DNA of 46,003 bases. Source: Kangiellaceae bacterium. GTDB lineage: Bacteria > Pseudomonadota > Gammaproteobacteria > Enterobacterales > Kangiellaceae. How positions within the stretch are numbered: the stretch's first letter is position 1; every line of letters starts with the position of its first letter. The notes under the pieces are model-generated. The model made no database searches and had not been told where the DNA came from. It saw nothing but the letters and a program-made list of their open reading frames with translations. This document shows positions 10,122-19,654 of this stretch, piece by piece. Where the stretch lies: NCBI GenBank assembly GCA_026196875.1, contig JAPHTP010000093.1, positions 1-46,003 on the forward strand, in the 5' to 3' direction. The translations under genes and the position numbers were made by a program.

Positions 10122-10393
10122 CTAAAATCTATTCTTATATATTTGTTGATTAAAAAACAAGCAATTAATATCTATTTATATCCTTAATCTTAAAAAAATC
10201 ACTTTTTTATATTGATTTATCTCTTTTTATTTCAATGGCTTACACAAATTTATCTCAATTTATTGGTTTCTGAGAACTTTTCACTGTAACTTCGATTGTG
10301 TGTTCAGTTTTTCTCTCAGTGAGATTCGTAACTGAAGAAATTTTGAACTACAAAAACCCTTTAAAAGCAAACACGCGAACTTGGAGAATTAAA
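10122..10393. other. AT-rich intergenic region upstream of the higBA-like pair
   Basis: This is a very AT-rich stretch with homopolymeric A and T runs and no supported gene. It should hold the promoter of the toxin-antitoxin pair. A reading frame open from about 10298 is an upstream extension of the toxin frame with no ribosome site. I see no clear palindromic operator. Confidence 0.4.
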
Positions 10394-10657
10394 TTGAAAG
10401 TTGTAGCCGCACAGCGAATTAAAGAAGCCCAGCAACGCTATCCAGCTGCGCATATGCATCTCGATGGGTGGTATCAAATCCTATCGCAGAGCGAATTTAA
10501 TTCTGAGCAATCACTTAGAGCTGCGTTTGGGGACATACGTGGATTTAATTTCCACTATAAGTTTCCAATACCCGAAACCACACTCTTGGTTCACACCCTT
10601 ATTAACTTTGAATCACAAGTTGCTTACATCGATACGATTAAGCCTGGCAACCACTAG
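10394..10657 (+). CDS. HigB-like toxin of a HigBA (E. coli YgjN/YgjM-type) pair, possibly inactive
   Basis: A protein of 87 residues from a TTG at 10394, with GGAG seven bases upstream. The N-terminal half aligns by eye with E. coli HigB: 'KVVAAQRIKEAQQRYPAAH' matches its start, and 'SLRAAFGDIRGF' matches 'SLKAVFPSLDNF'. 'INFESQVAYID' matches 'FFESQKCYIR'. HigB is a ribosome-dependent mRNA endonuclease. Two usual features are missing: the central glycine/asparagine-plus-basic segment is replaced by 'PIPETTLLV', and the chain stops at 'IKPGNH' where HigB proteins continue with a TH.EYD-type motif. The toxin may therefore be weakened or dead. The antitoxin gene starts 11 bases downstream. Confidence 0.7.
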   Translation: MKVVAAQRIKEAQQRYPAAHMHLDGWYQILSQSEFNSEQSLRAAFGDIRGFNFHYKFPIPETTLLVHTLINFESQVAYIDTIKPGNH

Positions 10658-10668
10658 AGGACTTAACA

Positions 10669-11076
10669 ATGCAAGAAACCTTGGAAAGAGCGGTACACCA
10701 CTGGAACATGGTTGCTCCAGTAGTGGATACTCCAAAAACTCATGAAGACTACGAAGCGTTACTCAGCAACCTGAAAACTACCATGGAATTGGTCGAAAAT
10801 CGTACTAATAGCCCACTATCGGGTTTAATTAAAGCGATGTCTCGAGCAGCCCAAGATTACGAGAAGACGCACATTATTTCTAAGCAAGGCGGTGCTTTAT
10901 TCGCGCTTCGTTATTTAATTAAACTGCATAATGTTAAGCAGGCGGACCTAAGAGAAATTGGAAGTCAGGGCGTAGTTTCTGAAATCCTTAACGGTAAACG
11001 TTCACTTACCATTAGGCATGTGCGTGAGTTAGCTAAGCGGTTTAATGTATCACCTAGTACATTTATTGACGCGTAA
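10669..11076 (+). CDS. higA: HigA-type antitoxin, HTH-XRE family
   Basis: A protein of 135 residues matching E. coli HigA (YgjM) along its length. The N-terminal helical part contains 'MVAPVVDTPKTHEDYEALL', the toxin-binding side. The C-terminal helix-turn-helix is at about residues 75-130, with 'ALRYLIKLHNVKQADLREIG', 'VVSEILNGKRSLTI' and 'LAKRFNVSPSTFID'. It neutralises the HigB toxin and normally represses its own operon by binding the promoter. The order toxin-then-antitoxin with a short gap is typical of hig loci. A strong terminator follows. The antitoxin looks intact although the toxin looks degenerate. Confidence 0.85.
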   Translation: MQETLERAVHHWNMVAPVVDTPKTHEDYEALLSNLKTTMELVENRTNSPLSGLIKAMSRAAQDYEKTHIISKQGGALFALRYLIKLHNVKQADLREIGSQGVVSEILNGKRSLTIRHVRELAKRFNVSPSTFIDA

Positions 11077-11136: not shown

Positions 11137-11629
11137 TTATTCTAAGCTTGGCGCGGCCAGCAGAATTTTGCCTACCTACGTAGTTTCCATTTTGTCATGA
11201 ATATTATCTGCTAAAAATACCTACCCGAGACCATGGGAAGAACGGAAAATATGAAATCCGAATCTAAGCTGTTTTCCTCCTGAATACTGTCAATTACCTA
11301 TATTGCTTTAATAGTTATTGTGAAGGAATACGAAGCAGCAAAAGAAAAATAAATGAAAAAAACGCCAAAGCTACCTAAGCTCAAACGCTAATTATAGTTT
11401 CAGATGTAACAAAATTGAATTTGGCAACTTGTTACTAACGGAAATATTTTTGTAAAAAAGCCTTCATCTTTTAGCAATAAATCTCATCTAGTCTATAGCC
11501 GTTCGCGTTCCAAGATATTTTTTATTTGGAGCCGCTTACCTAAAAAAATTCGAATAGTTATTAGTCTTTATAGTCTAGCTATTTATTAACAACGCATATT
11601 CCAATAATTCAAACACGATGGAGTGTCCC
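11137..11629. other. Upstream region of the alkaline phosphatase pair
   Basis: There is no gene in these 490 bases. A 7-bp inverted repeat GTAACAA/TTGTTAC (11406-11412 and 11429-11435) about 195-225 bases before the first phosphatase start could be a regulator site. I looked for a Pho box (tandem CTGTCAT halves 11 bp apart). Only an isolated TTGTCAT near 11192 was present, so Pho control is not supported. Confidence 0.4.
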
Positions 11630-13213
11630 ATGAAACTAAAACATACGCTTGTAGCTGGTGTAGCGTCGCTATTTGTCGCTTCCAGTTTGCACGCAGCTGT
11701 TTTGCCTGAGCACCAAACACAAAGTATTTGGTACACAGATTCTCAAACTACAATTAGCCAAAAGTTACAACAGCAGACAACTACGCGGGCCAAGAACGTT
11801 ATCCTATTTATTGGTGACGGTATGGGGATTTCTACTTTAACCGCTTCGCGAATTCTTGAAGGTCAATTAGCTGGAGGAAACGGAGAAGAGCATAACCTTT
11901 CATTTGAAACTTTCCCTCATACTGCGCTAGTTAAAACTTACAATGTCGACGCACAAACACCTGACTCTGCTGGCACAATGACTGCAATGATGTCCGGTAT
12001 CAAAACTGATGTTGGTGTGATCGGTGTTGATGAAGATATTGAAAGAGGAAATTGCTCTACCGTTGCAGGAAACGAGTTAGTAACAGCTCTCGAGCTAGCT
12101 GAAATCAAAGGCCTTTCCACCGGCGTTCTTTCGACGGCTCGGATCACGCATGCTACCCCTGCGGCCACTTACGCAAAATCAGCTGATCGTAACTGGGAAG
12201 ATGTATCTGATATGCCCGTTGAAGCTGTAGATGCAGGATGCAACGATATCGCTGATCAGTTGATCAAATTCGAAGACAACTTAGAAAACCGCTTCCTTGG
12301 TGTTGACGTTGATGGTATTGACGTTGTTATGGGCGGTGGCCGTCGTCACTTTTTACCAAAAGATCCGGCATTTAACTCTGCTGATGCTGTGAGCAGCACC
12401 GAAGGAGACCGAACTGATGCGCGCAACCTGACTGCTGAATGGCAGGAAAAATACGAAAATGGCGTATATGTGATGGATCAATCAGGCTTTGATTCTATCG
12501 ACACTGAAACAACTGAAAAAGTTTTCGGTCTGTTTAATGAGTCTCACATGCAATACGAAGCTGACCGTCAAAATGATATTGCCGGTGAACCTTCTCTGAG
12601 CGAAATGACCACTAAAGCGATCAACATCTTGGACAATAATGATAAGGGATTTTTTCTTATGGTTGAGTCTGGACGAATTGACCATGGTCATCACGCGGGC
12701 AGTGCCTACAATGCTTTAACAGATACCATCGAGTTTGCAAAAGCCGTTAAAGCTGCAGTCGATAACACTAACCCAGAAGAAACGCTGATCATTGTAACTG
12801 CTGACCATTCGCACGTATTTACTATTGCTGGTTACCCAAAGCGTGGTAATCCAATTCTGGGTAAAGTTGTAGCTGTTGGCGGTACAGAGCCATACCTCGC
12901 TTCTGATGGTATGCCCTACACTACTTTAGGTTATACCAATGGCCGTGGTTTCCGAGATCTAGGTACCGAAACTAATGCTGACGCTACCTATGACTCGGAC
13001 CCTGTTGCAGGACGCACAGATTTAACTAGTGTTGATACCGAAGCTTCAGGATTCCACCAAGAAACAACCGTACCCAAAAGTTCTGAAACACACGCCGGTG
13101 AAGATATTTCTATTCACGCAACCGGACCAGGATCACATTTTGCGCAAGGTAATGTTGAGCAAAATGTCGTGTTCCACATGATCAATCAAGCACTCAACTT
13201 GATCACTGAATAA
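11630..13213 (+). CDS. Secreted alkaline phosphatase (PhoA superfamily)
   Basis: A protein of 527 residues from the ATG at 11630, which has GGAG six bases upstream; an ATG 12 bases earlier lacks a ribosome site. The signal peptide is about residues 1-22 ('MKLKHTLVAG...SLHA'). Catalytic-core motifs are visible: 'NVILFIGDGMG' (metal ligand Asp near residue 63), 'TPDSAGTMTAMMSG' (nucleophile Ser near residue 113), 'GGGRRHFLP', 'FFLMVESGRIDHGHHAG' and 'VTADHSHVF' (zinc ligands), and a late 'ETHAGEDISIHATGPGSH'. It should release phosphate from phosphomonoesters in the periplasm or outside the cell. It forms a 13-base-spaced operon with a second, very similar phosphatase. Confidence 0.93.
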   Translation: MKLKHTLVAGVASLFVASSLHAAVLPEHQTQSIWYTDSQTTISQKLQQQTTTRAKNVILFIGDGMGISTLTASRILEGQLAGGNGEEHNLSFETFPHTALVKTYNVDAQTPDSAGTMTAMMSGIKTDVGVIGVDEDIERGNCSTVAGNELVTALELAEIKGLSTGVLSTARITHATPAATYAKSADRNWEDVSDMPVEAVDAGCNDIADQLIKFEDNLENRFLGVDVDGIDVVMGGGRRHFLPKDPAFNSADAVSSTEGDRTDARNLTAEWQEKYENGVYVMDQSGFDSIDTETTEKVFGLFNESHMQYEADRQNDIAGEPSLSEMTTKAINILDNNDKGFFLMVESGRIDHGHHAGSAYNALTDTIEFAKAVKAAVDNTNPEETLIIVTADHSHVFTIAGYPKRGNPILGKVVAVGGTEPYLASDGMPYTTLGYTNGRGFRDLGTETNADATYDSDPVAGRTDLTSVDTEASGFHQETTVPKSSETHAGEDISIHATGPGSHFAQGNVEQNVVFHMINQALNLITE

Positions 13214-13226
13214 GCAGGAGCTAACA

Positions 13227-15047
13227 ATGACTCACTATAAATTAACATTGGTTGCATTGGCCATTGCATCTCTGGCTGGGTGTGAAGACGGCGACAATGG
13301 TATCAACGGCTTAGACGGTTCTAATGGGCTAAGCAGTTTGGTTAAGCAAACTCAATTGTCAGTTGGAAACGTTGAGTGTCGTAACGGAGGTGTTCAGATT
13401 GAATCTGGATTGGATTCAGATAGCGACGGTATATTATCTGCCTCAGAAGTAACAGCAACAGAGTATGTATGCAATGAGCCTATTCGCTCATTAGCATCTC
13501 ACGATATTTTAAATAACACCAATAACCCCTGGTATATTCAAGCTGAACAAGGTGTAGAAAACACACAAGACAGTATCGCCGAAATAGTCAAAACAAAAGG
13601 TGAAGCTAAGAACATTATTTTGTTCATTGGTGATGGAATGGGGATTTCTACGGTAACTGCCGCGCGCATTCTTGAAGGTCAAAATAAAGGGATGATGGGT
13701 GAAGAAAATCAATTGAGCTTTGAAAAAATGCCGTTCGCTGGTTTGGCAAAAACTTATAATGTTGACGCTCAGACACCAGATTCTGCGGGCACTATGACCG
13801 CAATGATGTCCGGTATTAAAACTGATGTTGGTGTTATTGGTGTGGATGAAGATATCTCTCGTTCTGATTGTACTACCGTTGCAGGTAATGAATTAATCAC
13901 TGCATTGGAATTGGCCGAAATAGCAGGTATGTCAACAGGCGTTCTTGCTACAGCTCGTATTACTCATGCTACTCCAGCTGCCACTTATGCAAAATCAGCA
14001 GACCGTAATTGGGAAGATGTTTCCGATATGCCAGCAGCAGCTGTAACCGCTGGCTGTAAAGATATTGCAGATCAGTTAGTAAACTTCGAAGCTAACTTAG
14101 AAGCAAAGTTTGCCGGATTAGATGTCGATGGTATTGAAGTTGTTATGGGCGGCGGACGTCGTCATTTCTTACCTAATGATGCGGCGTTTAATTCTCCGGA
14201 TGCAGTGAGTAGCGTGGAAGGTGACCGTACCGATGGACGAAACTTAGTTGCTGAATGGCAAGCGAGTTATCCGGCAGGAGCTTACGTATTTGATCAAACA
14301 GGATTTGACGCGATCAATGCGGAAGTTACCGAAAGAGTATTTGGTTTGTTCAATGAATCTCATATGCACTACGAAGCTGATCGTCATAATGATATTGCCG
14401 GTGAGCCCTCGTTAACTGAGATGACATCAAAAGCGATCGATATCCTAGACAACAATGATAAGGGATTCTTTTTGATGGTTGAATCTGGCCGTATTGATCA
14501 TGGCCACCACGCAGGTAGTGCTTACAACGCATTAACAGACACCATTGAATTTGCCGAAGCAATTCAAGCTGCGATGGATAGAACTAATCCTGAAGAGACT
14601 TTGATTATTGTAACAGCCGACCACAGTCATGTGTTTACCATCGCCGGTTACCCTAAGCGCGGTAATCCTATTTTAGGTAAAGTTGTCGGTGTTGGAGAAA
14701 CCGAACCAGCATTAGCGTCAGACGACATGCCATACACTACTGTCGGTTACACTAACGGACGCGGTTATCGTGATTTGGGAACGGAAACTAATGCTGATGC
14801 AGTGTACGGTGAAGCTCCGGTTATAGGCCGCGTAGATTTGACTAGTGTCGACACAACAATGTCAGGATTTCACCAAGAAACTTTGGTACCACTGTCTTCT
14901 GAAACTCATGCTGGCGAAGATGTTGGCGTTTATGCTATCGGCCCGGGTTCGCATCTAATTAACGGAACTAACGAACAAAGCCTCATTTTCCATGTAATGG
15001 ACTTTGCAGGTGATTTAGTTGCGAAGGCTGATTCAGTTGTAGATTAA
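13227..15047 (+). CDS. Alkaline phosphatase lipoprotein with an N-terminal DUF7151-like domain
   Basis: A protein of 606 residues; AGGAG precedes the ATG. A lipobox 'SLAGC' puts the lipidated cysteine at residue 19. The short collagen-like 'DGDNGINGLDGSNG' and the segment to about residue 85 ('GLDSDSDGILSASEV', two cysteines) fit the small calcium-ligand-rich DUF7151 type of surface-lipoprotein domain. Residues 127-600 repeat the catalytic domain of the preceding gene at roughly 80% identity by eye, with the same motifs ('ILFIGDGMG', 'TPDSAGTMTA', 'GGGRRHFLP', 'VTADHSHVF'); the nucleophile is near Ser186. This looks like a tandem duplication in which one copy gained a membrane anchor and spacer. 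Nucleotides differ widely at third positions, so the duplication is not recent. Confidence 0.92.
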   Translation: MTHYKLTLVALAIASLAGCEDGDNGINGLDGSNGLSSLVKQTQLSVGNVECRNGGVQIESGLDSDSDGILSASEVTATEYVCNEPIRSLASHDILNNTNNPWYIQAEQGVENTQDSIAEIVKTKGEAKNIILFIGDGMGISTVTAARILEGQNKGMMGEENQLSFEKMPFAGLAKTYNVDAQTPDSAGTMTAMMSGIKTDVGVIGVDEDISRSDCTTVAGNELITALELAEIAGMSTGVLATARITHATPAATYAKSADRNWEDVSDMPAAAVTAGCKDIADQLVNFEANLEAKFAGLDVDGIEVVMGGGRRHFLPNDAAFNSPDAVSSVEGDRTDGRNLVAEWQASYPAGAYVFDQTGFDAINAEVTERVFGLFNESHMHYEADRHNDIAGEPSLTEMTSKAIDILDNNDKGFFLMVESGRIDHGHHAGSAYNALTDTIEFAEAIQAAMDRTNPEETLIIVTADHSHVFTIAGYPKRGNPILGKVVGVGETEPALASDDMPYTTVGYTNGRGYRDLGTETNADAVYGEAPVIGRVDLTSVDTTMSGFHQETLVPLSSETHAGEDVGVYAIGPGSHLINGTNEQSLIFHVMDFAGDLVAKADSVVD

Positions 15048-16181: not shown

Positions 16182-17870
16182 TTAACAATCAAGAAATCCC
16201 ATAGGTTCTTCTATCGCGGTCTTTAATCTTTCCGGCGTTTTGCCACAATTAATTTTATATACGAAATTCCTACGCAATGTATGATAACTGCTTTGAGGGT
16301 CATCAAAAGTTTGGCGCATTAGCTTTAATTCTTCGTCGCGATAAGATTGAAGTGACTTTTGTGCTTCTTCTTGAGCCCGCAACTCTCTTTTGCTTGTTAT
16401 AAGAGAATCATAATCGTCACTATTGGCTAGGGTCTTACAATATTCTTTAAGCTCGATTAAATAATCTTCCATATTCTCAGCGAAAACAGTATCAACGTAA
16501 TTAATTTTTTCCGCTTCACTTGCAAGGATTGGCAAACACTCAGTGGTCAGTTTTTGTGCCATATTTTGACCTACTCTTTTGGGGAGTAGGTAAGTCCAAT
16601 ATTCTGAACCTGATAACCCCATCGTTTTATAATGAGGATTAAAAACTATACCATCGCGCGCGATAACATAATCACAGGCTAATGGCAGAATAGCACCACC
16701 GGCGCCGGCATTACATTTTAATGCAGCGACAGTTAGTTTAGATTCACACTCAATTATGCTTTTAACTAGATCATTAATAGCGTTAATATTACGCCAAGAT
16801 TCTGCAGTAGGATCTGATGCCGACTGAATACAATTTAGGTTAATTCCGTTGCTAAAAAAATCGTCTCCTCCCATCAAAACAATAACTTTTATTTCTGGAG
16901 CATTTTTAAGTTGATTGAACGCGGATAATAATTGCAAACAGTTTTCAGTTGAAAATGCTCCGTTATAAAAGTTGAAATGAAGGTAAGCGACCCGACTTCT
17001 TACTTCAATACGAACATCATTTTGTACATCGGAAAAAATTTCTGGAACGCTGATATCGAGTTTTCGTAACGCAGGCAGTTTGAATGAGTTGCCCTTTTGG
17101 CTTCTTTCTCTGAGCTGTCTAATCCATACCGCGCCATCTATGGTTGCTCTGCATATAGCTTCATCTCTCATTCCGATAATTTCGCCAGGTGTTACATTGT
17201 GTTGTAAATTTTCAGCAATTGCTCCATACAAAAAATATTCTTGATTTTCAATTTTATCGAGAACACCTGGAAAGGAATCTGCCGCATTTATTTTTCGAAC
17301 AATATCTTCAGATGAATCGTTTCTCCAATTAATTTGTCGATCAGCTTGTTTCATCAAAGGTTGTTCTTTACCTACAATTGGAAAGGCTGAAAGATCAACT
17401 TGGGTTTTTCTAACGGTTTCGAAATTTCCTGCCGCGTCCAAAATTAGTTTTGATGCATTATTGGTAACAGAGTGACGATAGATACTTGCCTTAGAAAGTT
17501 TTGAATTAACTGAAAAGTATCGACTTCCCCAAATTTCGCCTGCGTCATAAACCGCATTTGCTTGCAGGAGTGTCACGCCCCAAGTGTTAGACTTATTAGT
17601 TATAGCCCAATCCAATGACGAAGGTCCTCGGTCACCAACAATGCCAGGGTGAAGTACAAGGCAGGGGATTTTGCTCCAAATAGAATCTGGAATGCGATGC
17701 TTTAAAAAGGGGCAAATTATCAGTTCGGGCTGAAAGTTCTTGAAAGCTTGCAACATTGTATTTGAATCAGGGGAGAGTTCAAAACAAACCCTATGGCTGG
17801 CATTCAAAAGTTCTTTATGAATACGTTGGCAAAGTCCGTTGTATGCAGTTGCAAAAATTAAAATTTTCAA
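16182..17870 (-). CDS. hoxX: HoxX, CO-producing hydrogenase-maturation-type enzyme (formyltransferase plus crotonase domains)
   Basis: A protein of 562 residues, the usual HoxX size. Residues 1-170 are a formyl-tetrahydrofolate hydrolase/transferase-like domain with 'LVLHPGIVGDRGPSSLDWAI' (His74 region) and 'WGVTLLQANAVYDAGEIW' (Asp109). Residues 180-270 are the linker domain. Residues 275-470 form an enoyl-CoA hydratase/crotonase domain with the oxyanion-hole segments 'FFSNGINLN' and 'NAGAGGAILPLACD', and the HoxX-specific 'FNPHYKTMGLSGSEYWTYLLPKRVG'. HoxX is known to turn a formyl group from formyl-folate into the CO ligand of NiFe hydrogenase in aerobes. No hydrogenase or Hyp gene is in this window. 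The gene is alone on its strand and divergent from an ACT-V4R/MHYT operon. Confidence 0.93.
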   Translation of the reverse strand: MKILIFATAYNGLCQRIHKELLNASHRVCFELSPDSNTMLQAFKNFQPELIICPFLKHRIPDSIWSKIPCLVLHPGIVGDRGPSSLDWAITNKSNTWGVTLLQANAVYDAGEIWGSRYFSVNSKLSKASIYRHSVTNNASKLILDAAGNFETVRKTQVDLSAFPIVGKEQPLMKQADRQINWRNDSSEDIVRKINAADSFPGVLDKIENQEYFLYGAIAENLQHNVTPGEIIGMRDEAICRATIDGAVWIRQLRERSQKGNSFKLPALRKLDISVPEIFSDVQNDVRIEVRSRVAYLHFNFYNGAFSTENCLQLLSAFNQLKNAPEIKVIVLMGGDDFFSNGINLNCIQSASDPTAESWRNINAINDLVKSIIECESKLTVAALKCNAGAGGAILPLACDYVIARDGIVFNPHYKTMGLSGSEYWTYLLPKRVGQNMAQKLTTECLPILASEAEKINYVDTVFAENMEDYLIELKEYCKTLANSDDYDSLITSKRELRAQEEAQKSLQSYRDEELKLMRQTFDDPQSSYHTLRRNFVYKINCGKTPERLKTAIEEPMGFLDC

Positions 17871-18200
17871 TTTTTTTCCTTTTGTTTTTTTTATTTGATC
17901 TAGAGCGTGATGGACTAATCTATTTTATTTTGCCCGAAAAATCCAAATGCACAGTTCACAAAAATATTTTTATCTCTTTGCGAGTTTGTGCCTATCTCGA
18001 AAAGAGAAGTAAGAGCAGTGGTCAAACAGTTGACTGTATATCTCATGCTCTATATTATTGCTGCGCCCCAATTTTTAAATTTAAAAATTTAGCCATGCTA
18101 AAAAACATAATGTATAACAAAAAAGAAATAGAAATTTAAAAAGATTAATAAATAAAAAATAATTTGACGAATAAAATAAACAAATAAAAGACTTGGAAAA
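17871..18200. promoter_or_regulatory. Divergent promoter region between hoxX and the ACT-V4R/MHYT operon
   Basis: These 330 bases are very AT-rich, particularly toward 18100-18200. Two symmetric elements stand out. One is GTCAA-ACAG-TTGAC at 18022-18035. The other is a perfect 20-bp palindrome AATTTTTAAATTTAAAAATT at 18070-18089. Either could be an operator shared by both promoters. A reading frame crossing this region on the plus strand (to 18139) has no ribosome site or protein-like composition and is not called. Confidence 0.45.
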
Positions 18201-18923
18201 ATGCTCTACGTATTAGTAAAAGAACAGCCTGGGTTGTTGGTTAAAATTTATCGCTGTTTAAATCAAGCAGATTATAAAATAACTTCACACCACCTGATCC
18301 CAAACCCTAAACAAGGAATGGTTGCAGTTAAGCTAGTTATTGCTGAAGGCGATCTCCCTATTTCATTTACATTGGAAAGCCAGTTGCTGAATATTGATGG
18401 CTGTTTGGACATCATGTACGAGGAGCCTAATTGGGAGCCTTCTGCATTAGATGGAAAAAAATCAAACCAAAACTCTTCAGATGTATTAAGCAAAACAATA
18501 AAAGCTACAGCGTCTGCAATTTTAAATGATTTTTCCAGTATCGAAAATTATGTGAATGGCTTTCGTAGAAAAACGGACGATGGTTCTGCTGCTGTTCATA
18601 TGTACAAGCTGGGATTTGAAGTCGGCACTGCGACTTATAAAAATGAGTTTTCACTCGGTAAACCACTAGAGCTAGAAAAAGCAATTAAAAGAATGCTTGC
18701 TAATGCAGTAAAAAAATTCGGTGATGTTTCGAGCAGCAAAAGAACTTTAACCATCGAAAATAATATATTCTGCAATCATCGTAATCCGGATAGTGAATGC
18801 GATTTTACTAAAGGTTTTGTCACCGGATTTTTAAAAGCTTCACCAAAAACAAAAAATGTAGCTGTGCACAATAGTTCATGTCGTTCTCATGGACAATTAG
18901 CTTGCACTTTTGAATTTCAATAA
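18201..18923 (+). CDS. ACT domain plus V4R-like domain protein, putative small-molecule or redox sensor
   Basis: A protein of 240 residues. Residues 1-74 look like an ACT domain ('LYVLVKEQPGLLVKIYRCLNQADYKI', a typical beta-alpha-beta start). Residues 80-110 are a polar linker. Residues 130-240 resemble a V4R (4-vinyl reductase) domain, with 'YKLGFEVGT' and the C-terminal cysteine pattern Cys191, Cys200 ('SECDFTKGFVTGFL'), Cys227 and Cys235 ('SCRSHGQLACTFEF'). V4R domains occur in regulators that bind phenolics or sense redox state, often with zinc or thiols. There is no DNA-binding or output domain, so it may act with a partner. It lies 14 bases before the MHYT gene and is divergent from hoxX, suggesting a functional link. 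Confidence 0.7.
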   Translation: MLYVLVKEQPGLLVKIYRCLNQADYKITSHHLIPNPKQGMVAVKLVIAEGDLPISFTLESQLLNIDGCLDIMYEEPNWEPSALDGKKSNQNSSDVLSKTIKATASAILNDFSSIENYVNGFRRKTDDGSAAVHMYKLGFEVGTATYKNEFSLGKPLELEKAIKRMLANAVKKFGDVSSSKRTLTIENNIFCNHRNPDSECDFTKGFVTGFLKASPKTKNVAVHNSSCRSHGQLACTFEFQ

Positions 18924-18937
18924 ATTGGGGGTAATAA

Positions 18938-19654
18938 ATGGAATATAATATTGGGCTATTAGCTCTTTCTTTTTGCGTAGCGGTTTTTGGTTCATTTACC
19001 GCGTTACAGTTAGCGATTCGGATTCCTACGGCGGATGGCAAGTCGCTTTGGTTCTGGGTGCTTACCGCTGGACTGGCTTTAGGAGGCGGCGGGATCTGGT
19101 CGATGCATTTTATTGGAATGCTCGCGATGGAGATGCCTTTTGCAATGTTATTTGATTTACAACTGACCATCGCATCACTTGTAATAGCGATTATTTTCGT
19201 TGCATTCGGTCTACTGATCGCTGGAAAAGATCTATTTGGAGACTCCAGCTTAATTATTGGCGGCGTAATTGCGGGCTTAGGAGTTTCTGCTATGCACTAC
19301 GTTGGAATGTATTCGATGATAGTTCCGGCTGATGTTGCATACAATGTTGGTATTGTAACCTTGTCGGTAGTGATTGGCGTAGTCGCTTCCATCGCTGCTT
19401 TATGGTTAGCGTACAATTTACGTGGAAATCTGCAGCGTTTCGGTAGCGCATTTATTATGGGGATCGCCGTTTGTGGAATGCATTACACTGGGATGTACGC
19501 AGTTAGTATGACGCCTAATCCTAGTTTGACATTGGCAGAAGGAATTTCTGGTAATGGTTTAGCTGGTGTTGTGTCTGCGATTACAGTTGTTCTTCTGCTA
19601 TCAATTCTATTTTTAGCACAGTTAAAGTCGAAGCAAAGAGTAAGTATGGTTTGA
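18938..19654 (+). CDS. Stand-alone MHYT-domain integral membrane sensor
   Basis: A protein of 238 residues, GGGGG eight bases before the ATG. It is almost entirely hydrophobic with about seven transmembrane helices. The three diagnostic repeats are 'SMHFIGMLAM' (56-), 'AMHYVGMYSM' (119-) and 'GMHYTGMYAV' (181-), each near the periplasmic end of a helix and each followed within a few residues by a proline. MHYT was proposed to bind copper and sense O2, CO or NO; it is also found in CoxC/CoxH of CO-oxidising bacteria. Unlike many family members it lacks a fused GGDEF, EAL or kinase domain. It forms an operon with the ACT-V4R gene and is followed by a strong terminator. Confidence 0.9.
   Translation: MEYNIGLLALSFCVAVFGSFTALQLAIRIPTADGKSLWFWVLTAGLALGGGGIWSMHFIGMLAMEMPFAMLFDLQLTIASLVIAIIFVAFGLLIAGKDLFGDSSLIIGGVIAGLGVSAMHYVGMYSMIVPADVAYNVGIVTLSVVIGVVASIAALWLAYNLRGNLQRFGSAFIMGIAVCGMHYTGMYAVSMTPNPSLTLAEGISGNGLAGVVSAITVVLLLSILFLAQLKSKQRVSMV

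Follow-up and report, generated by a model that had tools for sequence, protein, structure and literature searches.

A HoxX-type CO synthase gene beside MHYT sensor genes as a candidate hydrogenase-independent CO signalling module

HoxX (HypX), known from Cupriavidus necator and Aquifex aeolicus, releases carbon monoxide (CO) from 10-formyl-tetrahydrofolate via a formyl-CoA intermediate (PMC12134894, PMC6802093), and the residues proposed to act in catalysis are His74, Asp80, Asp109, Tyr416 and Glu426 in A. aeolicus numbering (PMC6802093). On the sensing side, CoxC of Afipia carboxidovorans is a CO-responsive repressor of MHYT-LytTR type whose MHYT domain senses CO with copper, O2 being an antagonist (PMC11347149). 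Here we describe a locus in which genes of these two kinds stand together. It lies in a 46,003-nucleotide stretch of DNA (the window) from a Kangiellaceae bacterium (GenBank assembly GCA_026196875.1, contig JAPHTP010000093.1), where a hoxX gene is divergent from a gene for a V4R-like protein and a gene for a stand-alone MHYT membrane protein. A sequence-only reading of the window had proposed that these genes form a CO signalling module independent of hydrogenase. Having searched the rest of the genome and other genomes for hydrogenase markers and for the same neighbourhood, we consider it probable, if far from secure, that HoxX makes CO from formyl-folate and that the MHYT protein reads it.

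The hoxX, V4R and MHYT genes of the window and its genus

The open reading frame (ORF) positions confirm the three genes and their divergent arrangement as they had been described (Table 1). Window HoxX matches Aquifex HoxX (6j0p) over nearly its full length (phmmer E 2e-132, residues 1-548). Its crotonase and C-terminal formyl-transferase domains score above the Pfam cut-off, with the N-terminal formyl-transferase domain just under it (21.3 of 26.1 bits), and together with the near end-to-end match these domains bear out the view that the protein is a complete formyltransferase-crotonase enzyme. By alignment, its five proposed catalytic residues are H74, D80, D109, Y414 and E423, and all five are kept in 19 of the 19 MHYT-linked HoxX proteins within an alignment of 112 rows. 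Among the other rows, Thr replaces the Tyr in four Bacteroidota proteins, Glu replaces D80 in two, the N-terminal part is missing in two, and one methanotroph copy (L102) lacks H74 and D109. The four Bacteroidota genes (L021, L022, L026, L027) whose products carry Thr at the position of Tyr416 are near hyp genes. As a full-length, two-domain protein with all five residues, window HoxX resembles the enzymes of C. necator and A. aeolicus; it differs from them in having sensor genes instead of hyp genes as neighbours, in a genome where the hydrogenase large subunit and HypD are unmatched.

The prediction of a stand-alone MHYT membrane protein also held, since PF03707 (E 1.2e-44, in four stretches) is the only domain found. 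The Met, His and Tyr repeats are conserved, the first motif having Phe for Tyr, and all 13 linked MHYT domains aligned share the Met-His pairs and following Met of the three MHYT motifs without exception. Unlike CoxC, the window protein showed no LytTR DNA-binding domain in a Pfam scan. The two systems are alike in that an MHYT membrane sensor is genetically tied to a CO-related gene; they differ in that CoxC controls CO consumption and has a DNA-binding domain (PMC11347149), whereas in the window the adjacent gene encodes a CO-making type of enzyme and MHYT is not fused to another domain.

The gene between them had been read as encoding an ACT-V4R protein with four C-terminal cysteines. The cysteines (C191, C200, C227 and C235) are invariant in all five aligned relatives, the window's included. 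The V4R profile (PF02830) matched residues 183-239 with 20.7 bits, short of its curated cut-off of 31, and three relatives scored 21.3, 28.9 and 26.6 bits against the same cut-off, 28.9 being the score of a paralogue; the ACT profile gave E 0.17 (12.5 of 27 bits). Because the V4R match is under its cut-off and the ACT match no better than this, we call the protein V4R-like and regard the ACT part of the description as unproven. Compared by sequence with solved structures, it gave one chance-level match and nothing more. MsvR, a V4R-bearing redox regulator of methanogens, matched residues 134-238 weakly (18.3 bits against a cut-off of 220), and the spacing of cysteines 200, 227 and 235 resembles that of the redox cysteines C206, C232 and C240 of MaMsvR (PMC3729527). 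The window protein differs from MsvR in that a Pfam scan detected no DNA-binding domain.

The window had been said to lack hydrogenase and Hyp genes, and reading its ORFs of at least 110 amino acids, without profile search, found none resembling either. The genome (6,276,235 bases in 188 contigs; completeness 100, contamination 2.19) returned zero matches to the NiFe-hydrogenase large subunit (PF00374) or to HypD (PF01924) in genome-wide searches that did match in control genomes. The expected absence of a NiFe-hydrogenase elsewhere in the genome was therefore upheld for these two markers; HypA, HypB, HypC, HypE and HypF were looked for in fetched hoxX regions only, and no search covered other hydrogenase classes. 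Both markers were likewise unmatched in five further genomes with the linkage, namely G285, G294, Aliikangiella coralliicola (G002), Peribacillus huizhouensis (G003) and Bacillus aerolatus (G004).

The arrangement is not confined to the window. Nine of the 295 genomes in the order have HoxX, and the window genome itself holds a second copy (contig C143, 3069-4781; 55% identity to window HoxX), again divergent from V4R-like (46%) and MHYT (68%) genes. According to a PF03707 search, the window genome has no MHYT genes other than the two that adjoin its hoxX copies, and there is a single MHYT gene, likewise beside hoxX, in each of G285, A. coralliicola, P. huizhouensis and B. aerolatus; the same is probably true of G294. 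For hoxX, V4R and MHYT respectively, identities to the window module are 55, 45 and 66% in G285 and 65, 73 and 78% in A. coralliicola. The G294 genes are on two contigs, one beginning with hoxX and the other with V4R-MHYT, a pattern that an assembly break between them would produce. V4R was present in four of seven genomes of the genus (taking G513 as A. coralliicola), those in which hoxX was found, and absent from the congeners G514-G516, where hoxX was not tested; a V4R gene was seen next to hoxX only in the window's genus, to which the V4R profile search was confined. The idea that HoxX is a leftover of hydrogenase maturation is unlikely for the window genome, because PF00374 and HypD are unmatched there while both HoxX copies retain the five proposed residues. 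Beside the second hoxX copy and convergent with it (L044:4774-6681) lie genes for a response-regulator-like protein and a HisKA_3 histidine kinase.

Linkage of hoxX to MHYT genes in other lineages

We scanned GTDB species contigs and obtained 30 HoxX loci, 16 of which have a hyp or hydrogenase gene no more than eight ORFs away, 9 an MHYT gene within three ORFs, and 5 neither. The nine MHYT-linked loci are those of A. coralliicola, P. huizhouensis and B. aerolatus and six methanotroph loci. In the two Bacillaceae, hoxX is followed after 55 bp (P. huizhouensis) or 41 bp (B. aerolatus) by a gene for an MHYT-PAS-GGDEF-EAL protein. This architecture recalls the MHYT-GGDEF-EAL proteins NbdA, MucR and CdgB (PMC11347149). 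What sets the Bacillaceae protein apart from those three is the hoxX gene so close upstream. We know of no hoxX partner for NbdA, MucR or CdgB. HoxX is rare in the Bacillaceae sampled, occurring in 1 of 43 and 1 of 24 genomes, in each case the starting genome.

In methanotrophs the operon runs from hoxX through a receiver protein of about 282 amino acids to an MHYT-PAS-histidine kinase, with further receivers where the contig continues; one protein of each kind was scanned to define these and the Bacillaceae architectures. The gap from hoxX to the receiver gene is 10-26 bp in the four loci checked, and the three-gene arrangement occurs in twelve methanotroph genomes. HoxX was found in 50 of 151 genomes of the family of methanotroph G007. 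Across the 63 loci examined in that family, several of which end at contig ends and from which the HoxX of G511 was left out, no locus had a hyp or hydrogenase gene up to eight ORFs away, and MHYT stood within three ORFs at 11 of them; one of these (L134, in G437) has its MHYT gene outside the hoxX operon and was excluded from the MHYT group of the trees. Stand-alone methanotroph MHYT genes away from hoxX had no common partner that we could see.

A wider sample served as background, with HoxX in 22 of 398 genomes across the phylum. In the 21 besides the window's, hyp or hydrogenase genes stood at 15 loci (a script found 13 among 18; L156 and L161 were added by eye), and none had MHYT near hoxX, 18 of the 21 being covered also by the PF03707 search. 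For L156, L161 and L164 other ORF frames had been picked, and their HoxX was taken from search coordinates.

Taking 80 genomes chosen for having hoxX, we found MHYT genes in 39, and 50 genes in all after merging motif hits. Twenty of the 50, L134 among them, have a hoxX no more than 8 kb away, where uniform placement would predict 0.28 (G294 not being counted across its contig break), in a set whose genomes are non-independent within lineages and were chosen partly because linkage had already been seen. For these counts MHYT and hoxX positions were entered and motif hits merged by hand, and genome sizes were rounded.

In a quick tree of 112 HoxX sequences the MHYT-linked rows fell in three clades and five changes were needed; forcing them into one clade was rejected (approximately unbiased (AU) test, p 2.6e-98). 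In a careful tree of 49 rows, supported branches impose three changes (bootstrap range 3-3); the lower number reflects the omission from this tree of L090, which has no MHYT nearby, and L098, whose contig ends. L030, L028 and L166 were dropped as fragments or duplicate, and L001, whose contig starts inside hoxX, was assigned by hand to the MHYT-linked group. In the 49-row tree the linked clades lie well away from hyp-linked HoxX. The Bacillaceae pair groups with HoxX of Bacillus sp. V3B and Oceanirhabdus, both of whose genomes have hydrogenase and HypD. For 27 MHYT domains, a quick tree with long branches needs two changes of the HoxX-linked label and places unlinked domains between linked ones. 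The HoxX trees and the AU test weigh against a single inherited cluster ancestral to all hoxX-MHYT pairs. Since the HoxX trees, the AU test and the MHYT tree all separate linked members, we think it probable that the link arose repeatedly and that each origin brought its own output.

HoxX itself is joined to a different domain in 31 of the 63 methanotroph loci, where it carries a C-terminal bacteriohemerythrin domain (for example L118:7613-9796). The hemerythrin profile PF01814 scored 26.7 bits against a cut-off of 25.3 in the one fused protein scanned, and the full ligand motif is present in 30 of the 31. As a second kind of gas-binding domain joined to HoxX, the fusion points the same way as the MHYT linkage, though most such genomes have HypD.

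Weighing the explanations

The proposal that hoxX and its sensor neighbours act apart from hydrogenase gains support overall, in that neither PF00374 nor HypD was found in the window genome and the neighbourhood recurs: duplicated in that genome, kept in congeners, and with other MHYT types adjoining hoxX in Bacillaceae and methanotrophs. By analogy with the published homologues, HoxX would take the formyl group from 10-formyl-tetrahydrofolate, hand it to bound CoA and decarbonylate it, releasing CO. The gas would then reach the membrane MHYT protein, bind probably at copper held by Met and His in competition with O2, and shift the state of the protein. That one input could feed several outputs, through the fused GGDEF-EAL domains and cyclic di-GMP (c-di-GMP) in Bacillaceae and through the histidine kinase and receivers in methanotrophs. 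In the window's genus the output is hidden and the V4R protein is our sole candidate for it; our guess is that the MHYT state is relayed to this protein, in which the cysteines point to a receiver that responds to redox state or metal. We would further guess that the CO signal reports the formyl-folate (one-carbon) pool against O2, a meaning that fits the substrate of HoxX and the competition with O2 at the sensor.

A broader version of this proposal is a dedicated bacterial gas-transmitter system with endogenous CO as the messenger for formyl-folate against O2: on three or more occasions in evolution, HoxX-type CO synthases would have been joined by copper-type MHYT sensors, which act on c-di-GMP enzymes, histidine kinases or, in the window's genus, a V4R partner. 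The HoxX-bacteriohemerythrin fusion of methanotrophs would be an O2-tuned form of it. We think this broader version could as easily be wrong as right.

Several observations weigh against CO signalling by HoxX and MHYT. MHYT domains are not CO-specific, as MucR and NbdA are tied to nitric oxide (NO) (PMC11347149), and the V4R-like protein has no output domain visible in the Pfam scan. L090 falls within the methanotroph MHYT clade yet has no MHYT nearby, a relative in another family (G057) has hoxX with neither PF00374 nor HypD and no MHYT, and other hoxX loci have neither hyp nor MHYT neighbours. When the linkage is reduced to three independent events, the Poisson tail for its arising by chance is 0.003, evidence much less strong than the gene count implies. 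Finally, of the 12 methanotroph genomes that carry the hoxX-MHYT operon, 10 have HypD; the exceptions are G009 and G373, the former of which does match PF00374. Hydrogenase service is therefore possible in the operon-bearing methanotrophs, and the case against it comes from the window's genus and the Bacillaceae alone.

The alternative that survives best, which we nonetheless hold to be unlikely, is that the CO from HoxX serves some other end and that the MHYT protein, instead of reading a message, protects against CO, O2 or NO by feedback or detoxification. CO is toxic, MHYT proteins answer to all three gases, and the divergent layout in the window fits feedback on hoxX; set against this, no CO consumer was seen by reading the listed neighbourhoods, and the outputs linked in Bacillaceae and methanotrophs are broad regulators. 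We find it rather improbable that HoxX no longer serves CO at all and disposes of excess formyl-folate through formyl-CoA, the MHYT protein sensing O2 alone. Formyl-CoA is a HypX intermediate (PMC6802093, PMC12134894) and the linked clades stand well apart from hyp-linked HoxX, but all 19 linked proteins retain the Tyr and Glu residues that have been proposed to carry out decarbonylation. Continued service to hydrogenase, whether to a class missed by PF00374 and HypD or, for methanotrophs, to an ordinary hydrogenase whose genes lie elsewhere, draws on HypD being present in 62 of the 80 hoxX genomes searched, ten operon-bearing methanotrophs included. We judge it quite improbable given the six linked genomes in which neither marker matched while controls did. 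That the three genes are neighbours without shared function, as the restriction of V4R to one genus (within a genus-wide search) might suggest, is hardly credible beside the enrichment near hoxX, the three separate clades, the tight spacing and the module's presence twice in one genome.

Other features, other contexts and meaning

Table 1. Features of the hoxX-V4R-MHYT locus (window positions).
Feature	Position	Strand	Details and evidence
hoxX (hypX), CO synthase of formyl-transferase and crotonase type	16182..17870	-	562 amino acids, TTG start; Pfam, phmmer, catalytic residues
AT-rich intergenic region between divergent hoxX and V4R-MHYT pair	17871..18200	.	alignment of four such regions
Promoter-like TTGACT-17-TATTAT for V4R-MHYT	18030..18058	+	consensus match only; 3 sites found vs 1.6 expected in shuffles
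V4R-like protein; ACT-like N-terminus unproven	18201..18923	+	240 amino acids, four invariant C-terminal Cys; profile scans, alignment
Stand-alone MHYT membrane protein	18938..19654	+	238 amino acids, starts 14 bp past V4R gene; PF03707

The TTG start of window hoxX is preceded by a purine-rich stretch. In the alignment of four divergent regions, the block around the -10 of the promoter-like site is also present in A. coralliicola. A shared operator was considered and set aside, as by eye this block alone was common with A. coralliicola, and the paralogous copy and G285 align poorly. Elsewhere in the window, reading indicated two similar adjacent alkaline-phosphatase-like genes, probably a tandem duplication (11618-15047), and a small HigB/HigA-like gene pair (10298-11076), for which no search was made.

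Other hoxX contexts were seen in passing. A DJ-1/AraC-type regulator gene (one product scanned) lies within two ORFs of hoxX in 43 of the 63 methanotroph loci, whether HoxX is fused or not, and mostly upstream where it is fused. At L083, L086, L138 and L030, hoxX is followed by two small membrane-protein genes and by sdhA and sdhB (succinate dehydrogenase; from the impression of the sequence and one seed search). HoxX is split into adjacent formyl-transferase and crotonase genes, with hyp genes around, at L048:6914-8630, L049:6883-8796, L036 and L039. Three loci of one genus (L160, L162, L163) have divergent hoxX and no hyp nearby; at L162 and L163 hoxX was read as lying between oxidoreductase-like and P-loop-kinase-like genes. 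On the Mycetohabitans megaplasmids (L167, L168), hoxX is annotated as a hydrogenase maturation protein, and the gene tables, which are incomplete, list no hyp or hydrogenase gene within 9 kb. This automatic label can mislead when applied to HoxX.

A literature search with most subscription journals and preprints outside its coverage returned, among its best matches, no paper joining MHYT with HypX or HoxX; within the same coverage we found none on HypX with hemerythrin, and none on enoyl-CoA hydratase with formyltransferase and MHYT. Judged by titles and the opening of abstracts, papers that use the term 'formyltetrahydrofolate decarbonylase' concern hydrogenases or C. necator.

If our preferred reading is right, the locus shares with mammalian CO signalling by haem oxygenase the pairing of a CO-making enzyme with a separate receptor (PMC6195638), haem being the substrate there and formyl-folate here. 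A 2018 review described the specific functions and targets of CO, and the role of endogenous CO in microbes, as unclear (PMC6195638). The genetic binding of a CO-making-type enzyme to a CO-sensing-type domain in genomes without the two hydrogenase markers makes the question of self-made CO testable, and three such genomes belong to named isolates: A. coralliicola M105, P. huizhouensis DSM 105481 and B. aerolatus CX253. Should HoxX and MHYT act as we propose, some bacteria may use CO of their own making as a signal.

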